From: Anaerolineae bacterium
Lineage (GTDB): Bacteria; Chloroflexota; Anaerolineae; 4572-78; J111
Direction of reading: 5' to 3'
Assembly (NCBI GenBank): GCA_020433835.1
Contig: JAGRBY010000283.1
Coordinates: forward strand, 1-8,852
Length of the DNA stretch: 8,852 nt
The notes beneath the pieces are model-generated. The model made no database searches and was not told the origin of the DNA. It worked only from the letters and a program-made list of their open reading frames with translations. The translations under genes were made by a program, and so were the position numbers. Of the stretch, positions 681 to 8,810 are shown in pieces. How positions within the stretch are numbered: position 1 is the first letter of the stretch; every line of letters begins with the position of its first letter.

Positions 681-1271
681 CTATCCGCCTTCCTCACCGC
701 CGGTAATACGCCAAACCAGATACATGCGCTGTATAGCGGTAAAGTTTGAAAAAATAGCCAACAACCACAAGATGAGCGTCAACTGATTAAAGATCAAGCC
801 CACCACCAACAGAAAAACCCGTTCAAAGCGGGTAAACAGGCCATCTTTTAGGGGCACACCGATGCCTTCCGCCCGTGCTCGAGCATAACTGACCATCAAC
901 GAGCCGACCACGGTGGCGTAAATCAATATCAGTTCCAACTGCTGGTTTTGGCCCATCAAGTAGATGAAAAGCCCTAAAAAGATAACCGCCTCTGAGAAGC
1001 GATCCAGCGTGGAGTCGAGAAAAGCGCCAAAGCGAGAGGTGCGCCCCATCATTCGGGCCAGCGTGCCATCGACAGCATCAAAGATGGCAGCCCCGGTGAT
1101 TAAAATGCCGCCCCACAAAAAATGGCCCTGCGCCAACACAAAAGCAACTCCCACCATCAAGATGAAGCCGATAATTGTAATTAAATTGGGGGAAACGCCG
1201 GTGGTACTGATAAATCGGGCCAAAGGCTCTAAAAAAACGCGGCTATACTTTCTTGCCATCTCACTGAGCAT
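681..1271 (-). CDS. CDP-alcohol phosphatidyltransferase, phosphatidylinositol-phosphate synthase (PgsA1)-like
   Basis: A 196-residue integral membrane enzyme predicted to transfer a phosphatidyl group from CDP-diacylglycerol to an alcohol, releasing CMP. The complete family signature is present: D65-x2-D68-G69-x2-A72-R73-x8-G82-x3-D86-x3-D90, whose aspartates bind the catalytic metals. Several hydrophobic helices are visible (about residues 30-47, 52-64, 94-106, 113-127, 150-175). The segment SYARARAE (128-135) followed by G144-x3-R148-F-E-R resembles the SYIKARAE...ERPER region I recall from mycobacterial PgsA1, as does QRMYLVW near the C-terminus. This favours inositol 1-phosphate as acceptor, though glycerol 3-phosphate is not excluded. 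One visible difference is Arg131 where PgsA1 has Lys. Start choice: GGAGG at 1281-1285 lies 9 nt upstream of the ATG at 1271; Met5 is the alternative. Its neighbours, a PimA-like glycosyltransferase and an acyltransferase, support the inositol-lipid reading. Confidence 0.88.
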   Translation of the reverse strand: MLSEMARKYSRVFLEPLARFISTTGVSPNLITIIGFILMVGVAFVLAQGHFLWGGILITGAAIFDAVDGTLARMMGRTSRFGAFLDSTLDRFSEAVIFLGLFIYLMGQNQQLELILIYATVVGSLMVSYARARAEGIGVPLKDGLFTRFERVFLLVVGLIFNQLTLILWLLAIFSNFTAIQRMYLVWRITGGEEGG

Positions 1272-1280
1272 GGGTAACTG

Positions 1281-1285
1281 CCTCC
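1281..1285 (-). promoter_or_regulatory. Ribosome binding site of the phosphatidyltransferase gene
   Basis: GGAGG on the minus strand, 9 nt before the ATG at 1271. It is the strongest Shine-Dalgarno match in the minus-strand block and decides the start in favour of Met1 over Met5. A dedicated strong site after a 243-bp gap also suggests that this gene is translated, and possibly transcribed, independently of the glycosyltransferase upstream. Confidence 0.65.
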
Positions 1286-1370
1286 ATCACAACGCGCACA
1301 AATAATTTAACTTGAGTATGAGTAGTTGAAGTCGATTTTGTTTACTATCTATTCAGATAATTTTATTACT

Positions 1371-1482
1371 GGGCGAAGGTTAAGGCTGAGGAACACTTTG
1401 GTTAATACAACCTATAGTTGATAAACGCGATAATTTTTTTCTTAGCCTTCGTCTCAGCCTCAGCCTTCATCTGATTTCGCCC
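1371..1482. repeat. Imperfect inverted-repeat element between the glycosyltransferase and phosphatidyltransferase genes
   Basis: The ends are complementary: GGGCGAA (1371-1377) with TTCGCCC (1476-1482), and further in AAGGCTGAG (1382-1390) with CTCAGCCTT (1459-1467). The right arm also contains a degenerate tandem of CTTAGCCTTCG / CTCAGCCT / CAGCCTTC. The centre (1391-1440) is AT-rich and ends in a T7 run. No clear target-site duplication flanks it. It could be a small dispersed palindromic element (MITE- or REP-like), or a long stem-loop acting as a processing or termination structure after the glycosyltransferase gene. The 80 bp to its left (1290-1370) are AT-rich and could hold the phosphatidyltransferase promoter, but I see no convincing -35/-10 pair. 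Confidence 0.45.
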
Positions 1483-1498
1483 CAAACAGAACTGTTTG
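1483..1498. repeat. Short palindrome CAAACAG-AA-CTGTTTG
   Basis: Perfect 7-bp inverted repeat with a 2-nt centre, lying 17 nt downstream of the glycosyltransferase stop codon in the transcription sense. A third copy of CAAACAG (1516-1522) overlaps that stop codon. It could be a weak hairpin or a dyad protein-binding site. No U-tract follows, so I do not call it a terminator. Confidence 0.3.
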
Positions 1499-1514
1499 CC
1501 GAATATTTTACACT

Positions 1515-2636
1515 TCAAACAGTGTCATTGTACACCGCTAAGGTTTGATCGACAACGTAATCCCAATTGTATTGGGTGGCTGTCATACGGCCGAGCTGTC
1601 CCATCCGCTGCCGCTGTTCAGGCTGCTCGATTAAAGAGCGTAGAGCAGCGGCCCATATATCGGCCTGACCGGGTGGTAACAGCAACCCTTCTTGCCCATG
1701 GTGAACCAAAGCGCGATAGCCGGTAATGTCCGAAGCGACTACCGGCAGTTCGGCGGCCATGGCTTCTAACAGCACGATGCCAAAACTCTCGCAGCCGGTA
1801 GAGGGCGCACAGAAGATATCGGCCTGATGGTAAAAATGGGGCAAATATTCAGGCGCAACGTAGCCGGTAAACTCAAGTCCGGCCACTCCTCGGGTTTGGG
1901 CCAAATAATGATACATGCGACACTGCCTATCATCAAAAGGACCAACCACGCGCAGTTTCAACTGCGGATAACAAGGCTGCAACGTACAGAATGCCTCGAA
2001 CAACGTAATGAAACCCTTGCGCGGCTCCGGGCGACCAACAAATAAAATCGTCACCTCGCCTGTCGCCGATTGGGGATGCGGCCCGCACGGCCGGCCAAAG
2101 CGGTTAAGGTCAACGCCGTTGGGGATAATGTGATAGTTGCCCGGAAACAAGCGCCCGGCAAAATCTCGGGCCGGCTGCGAAACAGCAATCAAGCGGTCGA
2201 GTTTGGCGAAGAGTTGGCTAAAAATCGACCGCCCCCGCCGGTAAAGCCAATGCGGCTGCTCGTGATAGGCGTGAAAAGTGCCCACCGTGGCAATGTGGGG
2301 CGCGGCCAGCAGCAAAAACCACCATGTTAGGCTGGGGATGAGTGGTTCTTGCAGGTGAATAATATCAAATTTCTCCTGGCGCAATATGGTTTTGACATGG
2401 CGATAATGTAACAGCCAAAAGCCAACGCGGGCAATGGTGCCGCCAATCGGCACTTTTGCAATTCTGCGGGTTATCACCCGCACGTTGGCCTGATTGCTGC
2501 CGGGCCGGCTTGAACTGGCCGCAAAAATTTGAACGTCGTGGCCTCGACGCTGCAAGCCGCCGGCCAGAGCTTTTACATGTTCGGTTACACCACCGGGATA
2601 GGGAAAATCGTAGGGAGAAACCAGAGCAATTTTCAT
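1515..2636 (-). CDS. GT4 glycosyltransferase, PimA-like (phosphatidylinositol mannosyltransferase type)
   Basis: A 373-residue GT-B glycosyltransferase predicted to transfer a nucleotide-activated sugar, probably mannose from GDP-mannose, to the inositol head group of a phospholipid at the inner membrane face. The N-terminal half has the acceptor-side loop PYPGGVTEH (12-20) and TFHAYHE with His122. The C-terminal half has VGRPEPRKG (200-208, Arg202, Arg206, Lys207) for the nucleotide-sugar phosphates, and the E-x7-E signature as E283-SFGIVLL-E291. From memory, mycobacterial PimA has PYSFDVPGGV, GRYDEPRKG and ESFGIVLVEAMAA at the matching places, an unusually close match along the whole length (PimA is about 380 residues). 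The ATG at 2636 lies 6 nt after the acyltransferase stop with no good Shine-Dalgarno, implying translational coupling. Another phospholipid or diacylglycerol glycosyltransferase (GT4) is the main alternative; sugar specificity cannot be read from sequence. Confidence 0.86.
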   Translation of the reverse strand: MKIALVSPYDFPYPGGVTEHVKALAGGLQRRGHDVQIFAASSSRPGSNQANVRVITRRIAKVPIGGTIARVGFWLLHYRHVKTILRQEKFDIIHLQEPLIPSLTWWFLLLAAPHIATVGTFHAYHEQPHWLYRRGRSIFSQLFAKLDRLIAVSQPARDFAGRLFPGNYHIIPNGVDLNRFGRPCGPHPQSATGEVTILFVGRPEPRKGFITLFEAFCTLQPCYPQLKLRVVGPFDDRQCRMYHYLAQTRGVAGLEFTGYVAPEYLPHFYHQADIFCAPSTGCESFGIVLLEAMAAELPVVASDITGYRALVHHGQEGLLLPPGQADIWAAALRSLIEQPEQRQRMGQLGRMTATQYNWDYVVDQTLAVYNDTV

Positions 2637-2642
2637 CGCGTA

Positions 2643-3512
2643 TCAAGATGGCTCGGCCCAAATAGGGACGGTTACCGTCCACTGTTCGGGGGCCTGGGCG
2701 ATGGCTTTTTCCATTTCGGCCACAATAAATTTCATACCCGCCGCTATGCGTTCTTCTTCCGAGCCGGAAGCGGGCGGATGGTAAGGCGGCAAAAACGTGG
2801 CCTGATAGCTTTGATCGGGGCGGCGATAGCTGAAGCCAACAACCAAAGGCGCGCCGGTTCGCAGCGCCAAACGGATATGGCCGTCGGGCAGGTGGGCCGG
2901 ATAGCCAAAAAAATCAACAATTTGACCGGTGCCGGTGATATCGCGGTCGCCGGCTAAGCCGGCCACGCCTTTCTTTTTGAGTGTCCGGATCAGATCGATT
3001 AGAGGGCCATCAATGGGGATCAATTTGAGACCTTTGCTGGTACGCAGGGCCGTAATGTAGCCAAAAATCTCCGGCGGCTCGATCCGCTCGACCGGAATGG
3101 TAATCGCCAAGCCGCGCAGCAGCATGGCGTACAGTACTACCTCGATATTGCCCAGATGGGCCGAAGTCATTACGATACCTTTACCTTCGGCCAAGGCGGC
3201 TTCGACATTATCCCAGCCGTTGACGGTCACCAGCCGCCTGACGGCATCATCATCCAATCGAGGCAGCCGGAACAGATCGAAATAATTATAGAGCAGCGTG
3301 TCGAAGGTTAACCGGGCGCGACGCTGTATCTCCCCCTCCGCTATTTGGGGACCTAAGATACGCCGCAGATTGAGGCTTATTGTCAAACGGGTCGACCGGT
3401 TAAAACGATAGGCCAAACCGCCGGCCCAGCGGCATAGGGTGTAGCCTAAAGCCGGCGGAATTTTAGGGACAATCGTCCCGGCCAGTCGAACCAGATGATA
3501 ACTTACGCTCAC
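2643..3512 (-). CDS. LPLAT/LpxL-family acyltransferase, PatA-like
   Basis: A 289-residue member of the bacterial lipid A/PIM acyltransferase family, which transfers a fatty acyl chain from acyl-CoA or acyl-ACP to a glycolipid hydroxyl at the cytoplasmic membrane. Visible hallmarks are the catalytic H-x4-[DE] box as H119-LGNI-E124, the GDRD segment (188-191) in a stretch ending IVDFFG (198-203), the HLPDG turn (207-211), and APEQW (274-278), the C-terminal motif typical of LpxL/PatA proteins. The amphipathic N-terminus could be a membrane anchor. It starts with GTG (3512), 17 nt after the lipoprotein stop, without a clear Shine-Dalgarno; the glycosyltransferase follows 6 nt after its stop. Nothing in the window suggests lipopolysaccharide. 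The PimA-like and PgsA1-like neighbours make a PatA-type role, acylating a glycosylated phosphatidylinositol, the best inference. Family confidence is high; acceptor identity is inferred. Confidence 0.86.
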   Translation of the reverse strand: MSVSYHLVRLAGTIVPKIPPALGYTLCRWAGGLAYRFNRSTRLTISLNLRRILGPQIAEGEIQRRARLTFDTLLYNYFDLFRLPRLDDDAVRRLVTVNGWDNVEAALAEGKGIVMTSAHLGNIEVVLYAMLLRGLAITIPVERIEPPEIFGYITALRTSKGLKLIPIDGPLIDLIRTLKKKGVAGLAGDRDITGTGQIVDFFGYPAHLPDGHIRLALRTGAPLVVGFSYRRPDQSYQATFLPPYHPPASGSEEERIAAGMKFIVAEMEKAIAQAPEQWTVTVPIWAEPS

Positions 3513-8208: not shown

Positions 8209-8757
8209 TTAGCGAGCATTAATCTGTTCCAGAATGGACAACAGTTGCTCGATGGCAGGCCGGTCAGTGGGTTCTTGGCTGGGGTGGGTATAACGCAAAA
8301 TACCGCTGTTATCGATGATAAAATCCCCACCAAGCTGACTGGTGTCTTCGCCATGCGAATCGTACAGCGGCTTTCTCTGGACCACAGCTTTAGCATAATA
8401 CCACAGGTTTTTTAGACCCCACGACCGCAACACCGACTGCTCCAAGCCATAGGCGCGATAAGCCTTCCGCTCTTGATCGAGCAGCAATGGAAACGGAGCC
8501 TGCGTCTGTTCTTGCCACACTTTAACCCAGAACTCAGCTCCAAAAGAGATGACCACAACTTCGGCATTTTGTACTTTGATATCTTCATAACGTGAGCGCA
8601 ACTGCGCTACATGATCACGTCACGGCAGTCAGCCCAAATGGCGCAGAAAGACCAGCACCACGTGCTGGCCCTTGCTCCAGGTATCGGCTAGCGCGATATT
8701 TCCACCATCGACAGTTTTTAGTATGAGATTCGGGGCTTTGCGACCGGTTTTTATCAT
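8209..8757 (-). CDS. Double-selenocysteine (UxxU) peroxiredoxin-like protein, SelL / AhpC-TSA_2 type
   Basis: 182 residues read from ATG 8757 to TAA 8209, translating two in-frame TGA codons (8631-8629 and 8622-8620) as selenocysteine U43 and U46. The protein is a thioredoxin-fold peroxiredoxin-like enzyme: N-terminal KAPNLILKTVDG (7-18), a central strand HVVLVFLRHLG (32-42), then U-L-P-U followed by RDHVAQLRSRY. Relatives usually read as FLRHxGCPFCREHVAQLR, so both cysteines of CxxC are replaced. Downstream are FPLLLDQERKAYRAYG (89-104) and QLGGDFIIDNSG (141-152), ending in DRPAIEQLL, all family-typical. There is no cysteine anywhere, so the UxxU pair is the only possible thiol/selenol redox centre, probably a diselenide. 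GAAGG at 8770-8766, 8 nt before the ATG, supports the start. Other genes here end in TGA, so TGA is not generally recoded. Standard gene callers would miss the N-terminus and report only a fragment starting near 8601. The peroxidase or reductase substrate is unknown. Confidence 0.85.
8586..8624 (-). promoter_or_regulatory. Bacterial SECIS-type stem-loop for selenocysteine insertion
   Basis: On the minus-strand RNA, CGUGACGUGA (8624-8615) pairs with UCACGUUAUG (8595-8586) in an uninterrupted 10-bp helix with two G-U wobbles. Then comes a 7-nt bulge UCAUGUA on the 5' side, an apical stem GCGC (8607-8604) with GCGC (8599-8596), and the tetraloop AGUU (8603-8600). Bacterial SECIS elements recognised by SelB have a small apical loop with a G in the first two positions, roughly 16-37 nt after the UGA. 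Here G is loop position 2 and the spacing is 25 nt from the first UGA and 16 nt from the second. The second UGA lies in the lower helix. Folding was done by eye. Confidence 0.75.
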
Positions 8758-8765
8758 CAACTTTT

Positions 8766-8770
8766 CCTTC
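8766..8770 (-). promoter_or_regulatory. Ribosome binding site of the selenoprotein gene
   Basis: GAAGG, followed by AAAAGTTG, stands 8 nt before the ATG at 8757. It places translation initiation upstream of both TGA codons and so supports the full-length selenoprotein over the shorter frame that could begin at TTG 8601. Confidence 0.65.
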
Positions 8771-8781
8771 AAAAAAGATTT

Positions 8782-8810
8782 TGTAGGACAAGTCAGCGAT
8801 TTGTCCTACA
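8782..8810. repeat. Perfect 10-bp inverted repeat in the selenoprotein leader
   Basis: TGTAGGACAA (8782-8791) and TTGTCCTACA (8801-8810) are perfectly complementary around a 9-nt loop. On the minus strand the hairpin is followed after 5 nt by TTTTTT and then by the ribosome site of the selenoprotein gene. It could be a terminator or attenuator, a leader stem-loop, or a copy of a dispersed palindromic (REP-like) repeat. Confidence 0.6.

Follow-up and report, generated by a model that had tools for sequence, protein, structure and literature searches.

Classical peroxiredoxins have a TxxC arrangement, animal selenoprotein genes carry their SECIS in the 3′-UTR, and SelL was reportedly described by Shchedrina in 2007 as a UxxU protein with a diselenide. 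Among described systems, a 'Prx-like thiol:disulfide oxidoreductase' selenoprotein family with both UxxC and UxxU forms is tabulated in sections of PMC9312934 and PMC13188914, a section of PMC2398784 reports from ocean samples UxxU in the Prx-like 2 family and UxxC in the Prx-like 1 family, and a passage of PMC3473315 presents SelL as a 2-Sec family alongside four prokaryotic AhpC proteins that contain Sec and come from bacteria living in polluted water. As the reference cited in that passage for the Sec-containing AhpC concerns Chloroflexi, a Sec AhpC of this phylum may have been published already. Within main texts, 'Anaerolineae' occurs in neither PMC9312934 nor PMC13188914, 'Chlorofle' is absent from the former and 'Chloroflexota' from the latter, and our literature search of main texts found no paper on a Prx-like selenoprotein in Anaerolineae and none using the name 'SelL-related' redox protein.

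Here we analyse a gene on an 8,852-nucleotide stretch of DNA from an Anaerolineae bacterium (the window; contig JAGRBY010000283.1). We hold with high confidence that it specifies a UxxU thioredoxin-fold selenoprotein with a redox role, whose UGAs would be decoded by SelB via one downstream hairpin.

Frame, family and fold of the gene

Two TGA codons are the only internal stops of the frame, the peptide around the active site reads FLRHLG-U-LP-U-RDHVAQLR, and the protein contains no cysteine (Table 1), which confirms on the minus strand what a sequence-only reading had described as two TGAs in an otherwise intact, cysteine-free frame of 182 codons. The plus-strand reading of the same interval contains other stops and was rejected.

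Table 1. Coordinates of the features of the selenoprotein gene (positions of the window)
Feature	Position	Strand	Basis
SelL-related selenoprotein CDS (predicted), 182 residues, ATG to TAA, two in-frame TGA	8209..8757	minus	frame reading and NF040769 match
GAAGGA, ribosome-site-like motif, 7 nt 5′ of ATG	8765..8770	minus	read from sequence
Start codon ATG	8757-8755	minus	
TGA, codon 43 (putative first Sec, site 1)	8629..8631	minus	TGA in 80/80 loci (best 80 of 130 relatives)
TGA, codon 46 (putative second Sec, site 2)	8620..8622	minus	TGA 14, TGC/TGT 65, TAC 1 among best 80 of 130
SECIS-like hairpin (candidate)	8595..8608; arms 8608-8604 and 8599-8595, loop AGUU 8603-8600	minus	covariation and folding, published bSECIS constraints
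Stop codon TAA	8211-8209	minus	

TGA terminates two of the six other genes in the window and occurs in frame in none of them, which argues against its general reassignment as an amino-acid codon here; the two codons also sit where other family members carry Cys or TGA, and we regard such a reassignment as exceedingly improbable.

When Cys is substituted at both TGAs, the protein matches PF00578 (AhpC-TSA, 82.5 bits) as well as PF13911 and PF08534, and it scores 159.7 bits against the NCBIfam model NF040769, 'SelL-related redox protein' (cut-off 120), a model that all 49 aligned members match and from which we found no excluding difference. As in bacterial selenoproteins generally, an in-frame UGA occupies a conserved Cys/Sec position, and the combination of PF00578 with UxxU is shared with the Prx-like thiol:disulfide oxidoreductase selenoproteins as given in sections of PMC9312934 and PMC13188914, a comparison of domain and motif; the example record named there is WP_010940744.1. 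The NF040769 match and the UxxC and UxxU forms tabulated in those sections place the window protein in an already named family of an already known kind. SelL of aquatic animals likewise has two Sec according to a passage of PMC3473315, a likeness in Sec number.

An AlphaFold2 model built from 49 sequences (pLDDT 95.9, pTM 0.91) puts residues 43 and 46 where helix 44-55 begins, and its top matches among solved structures are Bcp, peroxiredoxins, AhpE and ResA, all of the thioredoxin fold. The best of these is Bcp4 (3hjp; TM 0.77 by query length, 23% identity). Bcp/PrxQ and AhpE are thus alike in fold but have the classical TxxC where the window protein has UxxU, and the protein reaches only 29.5 bits against the thiol peroxidase Bcp model PRK09437 (cut-off 140). 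ResA is also alike in fold, and in a sequence alignment residues 43 and 46 fall on its CxxC, but identity is ∼20%, Sec stands in place of Cys, and the score against the ResA model PRK03147 is 47.6 bits, far below the cut-off of 170.

Relatives, their active-site codons and their genomes

Relatives with DNA were collected by scanning genome contigs with two peptide patterns from the C-terminal part of the protein, away from the active site. The scan matched 163 stretches; relatives were encoded in 130 of them, and from these the best 80 were retained (L001-L080). These counts reflect a query alignment made mostly of short TGA-type proteins, a ranking by likeness to the UxxU protein, and four assemblies that contribute two loci each. 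A scan of viral contigs matched 90 stretches, none of which encoded a relative. Among the best 80 of the 130 relatives, site 1 is invariably TGA, and site 2 is Cys or TGA in 79. The one exception, L037 (4121-4168), has Tyr at site 2, giving UxxY, which is either an error or a true one-Sec form.

If a CxxC gene had acquired the TGAs by nonsense mutation or faulty base calling, they should not recur in this manner: TGA stands at site 1 in 80/80 loci and at both sites in 14/80, and the frame bodies are free of stops, extra stops being found in five loci and always at the C-terminal end of the match. The nearest of the best 80 loci, L001, comes from a separate MAG, is 65% identical and has both TGAs. 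Its differences from the window after the TGAs fall mainly on third codon positions (16, 14 and 43 at positions 1, 2 and 3); before the TGAs the third-position excess is slight (16, 10 and 20), an observation that leans towards a decayed gene. Together with the covarying hairpin described below this makes a pseudogene or sequencing error very unlikely, and for site 1 the 80 aligned loci, taken as sequence evidence, already refute it. The sequence-only reading had judged the TGA pair not to be random nonsense, and the pattern indeed lies far beyond chance. Codons 43 and 46 are, on this comparative evidence, almost certainly selenocysteine codons.

The same reading had expected such a protein to be unusual in this lineage, which is not the case, as 70 of the best 80 loci belong to Chloroflexota by record title, every one with TGA at site 1. 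The remainder are four Planctomycetota loci (L074, L075, L076, L080), one from Phycisphaerales (L059), and five of other or no named phylum (L020, L021, L032, L041, L049), for which wrong binning is possible. By its profile match and these record titles, the protein family is already named and common rather than rare in Chloroflexota, a phylum whose members are for the most part uncultured.

Searching a protein database with the window protein gave 186 matches. Of the 120 listed, 105 are only 106-147 amino acids long (lengths read from the proteins, DNA not seen), as expected from a gene caller that restarts after an in-frame TGA, and one of them (P0002) is the window's own fragment; the forecast that annotation would yield a truncated piece is thereby borne out, and the family is probably widely mis-annotated. 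The remaining 15 listed matches measure 164-193 amino acids, with CLPC or CIPC in 13, so CxxC forms do exist in the database. The suggestion that relatives carry CxxC therefore stands for distant ones (six aligned CxxC proteins are 44-48% identical to the window protein) but fails for the closest relatives with DNA seen, which are UxxU or UxxC. Other close relatives, the proteins P0003-P0009, are 69-88% identical.

Sec machinery was searched in 36 genomes selected among those carrying the 80 loci, a set distinct from the window's own genome, and in 14 controls. selB scored above cut-off in 33/36 relatives' genomes (below it in G003, G017 and G036) and in 2/14 controls. tRNA-Sec passed the Rfam cut-off in 32/36, but because 5/14 controls passed as well we counted only matches above 60 bits, a gap picked after the scores were seen, which leaves 30/36. 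Among the 13 genomes with a UxxU locus, selB was found in 12 and tRNA-Sec above 60 bits in 11. In a subset of 13 genomes selA and selD were each above cut-off in nine, with no selA match in G021, G022 and G034 and selD below cut-off in G001, G002, G021 and G036. In the nearest relative's genome (G001), where selD falls below cut-off, selB is present, selA is reduced to a fragment at the end of a contig, and the tRNA-Sec match is a doubtful 47.3 bits. These gaps may be due to incomplete MAGs, whose completeness was not given. As a separate observation, nine of ten selD matches above cut-off contain one in-frame TGA (G003, G015, G017, G019, G022, G025, G026, G028 and G034), so SelD of those genomes looks like a selenoprotein too.

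Upstream of the selenoprotein start codon the window extends for 95 bases. When six window genes were compared with the 80 loci, those labelled CDPOH, GT4 and HK found a match, while the adjoining gene, SIR2, did not. On the minus strand at 681-3512 a CDP-alcohol phosphatidyltransferase, a Lip_A acyltransferase and a GT4 glycosyltransferase stand in a row, which we take to resemble the actinobacterial pgsA1-patA-pimA locus for phosphatidylinositol mannosides; the first of them scores 155.7 bits against PIP synthase NF045883, below the cut-off of 170. In 27/80 loci (L012 3279-3881 and 26 others) the selenoprotein gene is preceded, on its own strand and at no more than 1.5 kb, by a CDP-alcohol phosphatidyltransferase-like gene (one representative Pfam-confirmed). 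The flank of 24/80 loci encodes a flavoprotein with kinship to halogenases and geranylgeranyl reductases, within 1.5 kb in 21 (L029 1669-3375 and 23 others; one representative checked). Just upstream of the ribosome-site-like motif, at 8782-8810, is an inverted repeat with perfect 10-base arms, possibly an operator or repeat element; the arm sequence is unique within the window, and a full match was found in 0/80 loci. Finally, the fetched flanks contain a pyridine nucleotide-disulphide oxidoreductase in 12/80 loci and a thioredoxin-like gene in 10/80, only one of the latter within 1.5 kb (one representative checked in each case). These redox genes of relatives fit a thioredoxin-type donor and say nothing on the window itself.

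A SECIS-like hairpin behind the two UGAs

A bacterial SECIS is constrained, in the section of PMC13188914 that states the limits, to a loop of 3-9 nt with G in loop positions 1-2, a stem of 4-16 bp, a distance of 16-37 nt from the UGA and an MFE of ≤ –7.5. The window hairpin falls within these limits for both UGAs, as its AGUU loop has G second, its stem is 5 bp, its folding energy is –11.8 kcal/mol, and the loop begins 25 nt past UGA 1 and 16 nt past UGA 2. The element lies inside the gene, which differs from the 3′-UTR position of SECIS in the genes of aquatic animals that encode SelL. Searched against Rfam, the window returned three matches, none of which reached its gathering score.

Covariation was counted in 61 of 81 sequences (the 80 loci and the window) that have a CAG-TTG or CGG-TTG loop, making 59 distinct rows and leaving out 16 QV and four EV/DV sequences. 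Across these rows 99.0% of cells in the 5-bp stem are paired, and both-sided changes occur in four of the five pairs (53 cells). The covariation score of 0.571 compares with a shuffled mean of 0.205 and was reached in 0/500 shuffles, and versions slid along the alignment score ≤0.186; because shuffles ignore kinship they overstate the case, whereas the slid control retains it. The number of pairs with both-sided changes is less telling, being reached in 16/500 shuffles. RNAalifold recovered the identical stem unaided. Several of the covarying bases are third codon positions that track a nearby codon, for example GCA-CAG-TTG-TGC vs GCG-CAG-TTG-CGC, a pattern that protein-level selection alone would not predict. 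The QV loci show weaker inner-stem pairing, with two inner pairs kept in 9/16 and 11/16.

Synonymous recoding of the 36 nt past site 2 gives a mean z of –1.32 (p<0.05 in 35/81 sequences), compared to –0.14 (7/81) for a control stretch. The window taken by itself shows a weak signal (z –1.5, p 0.07, so that 7% of recodings fold equally well; plain shuffles give z –0.8 to –1.5), and it is weak also in the UxxU members L031, L039 and L061. By these comparisons the hairpin fits the published bacterial SECIS model, as stated in that section of PMC13188914, with strong compensatory changes.

The geometry recurs in all 15 UxxU sequences, where the loop begins 25-26 nt past UGA 1 and 16-17 nt past UGA 2, and one hairpin can thus serve both codons. 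Against a separate SECIS for each UGA, folding the 42 nt past site 2 gave a single hairpin in 15/15 UxxU sequences; this search for a second element was by folding only, which leaves room for upstream or more distal structures, and we give two separate elements a modest chance at most. In the Planctomycetota loci L074, L075, L076 and L080, which group together on the tree and are all UxxC, the hairpin is shifted, its loop beginning 19-21 nt past UGA 1 and 10-12 nt past site 2. The idea that this spacing forbids UxxU in these loci is suggestive only and was set aside, since the chance that four of 81 are all non-UxxU is ∼0.43, computed from the counts.

It could also be argued that only UGA 1 is read as Sec, with UGA 2 mostly terminating or representing a recent loss-of-function change from TGC/TGT to TGA. 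The window loop lies at the very lower limit of the published distance range from UGA 2, and Cys is kept at site 2 in 65/80 loci, both of which speak for this idea. Against it, the 14 UxxU loci fall in several supported groups with open frames downstream, UxxU is present in the published family tables as far as the sections cited above go, and since the form is common to the window and L001 at 65% identity it has persisted. We consider a single functional UGA improbable.

The evidence thus favours the double-Sec protein, and the original claim of a UxxU peroxiredoxin-fold protein in a Chloroflexota-like genome gains support from TGA conservation, the NF040769 match, the hairpin and the structural model. 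The gene product is, as far as such comparisons can tell, most likely a small redox protein with two Sec in its active site. In the mechanism we propose, the gene would give a thioredoxin-fold, peroxiredoxin-like selenoprotein with the active site U43-L-P-U46. The downstream hairpin, a structure derived from comparison, would recruit SelB, which would decode both UGAs with Sec-tRNA, this one hairpin probably serving the two codons that its position allows. The two Sec at the helix start would probably alternate between two selenols and a diselenide. As site 1 is TGA in all of the best 80 loci and site 2 is U, C or Y, we infer that Sec43 probably makes the attack, to be resolved by residue 46, as in thioredoxin-like oxidoreductases and not as in TxxC. 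Most likely the enzyme would catalyse thiol/disulfide or peroxide reduction, drawing electrons from a donor of the thioredoxin type, which is the least certain step.

Spread of UxxU in the family

A tree of 90 rows (80 loci, the window and nine of the 13 CxxC matches) was built with both active-site positions masked; its bootstrap was not fully settled. The window pairs with L001 (UxxU, 100/99), and L002 and L003 (UxxC, 97/82) join this pair next. UxxU requires at least seven changes on this tree, six of them forced by well-supported branches, while shuffled labels average 14.2; the UxxU label is therefore, on this tree, clustered but not single. A single origin, with all 15 UxxU rows in one clade, was rejected (p-AU 6e-62), as was the grouping of the eight UxxU rows of the larger clade (p 3e-4), while the grouping of the window with L001, L031 and L039 was not (p 0.31); these p-values flatter, because the tested groups were picked with the tree already in view.

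By parsimony, gains of UxxU cannot be distinguished from losses. Since a single base separates TGC and TGT from TGA, and UxxC members already possess the hairpin, repeated gain is, on the sequences compared, our preferred but unproven reading. The hairpin lies at a workable distance from site 2 in most UxxC members, so a single base change would be enough for UxxU. We put forward, as a proposal whose chances we judge about even, that one in-frame SECIS decodes both UGAs, that a change from TGC/TGT to TGA suffices to convert an enzyme with one Sec into one with a diselenide, and that UxxU arose several separate times in Chloroflexota.

If this is true, the family would be a natural series on the benefit of a second Sec. 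With CxxC, UxxC and UxxU members interspersed in its tree, the family offers a way to compare directly one enzyme with no, one or two Sec, and it bears on how near a UGA may stand to a bacterial SECIS.
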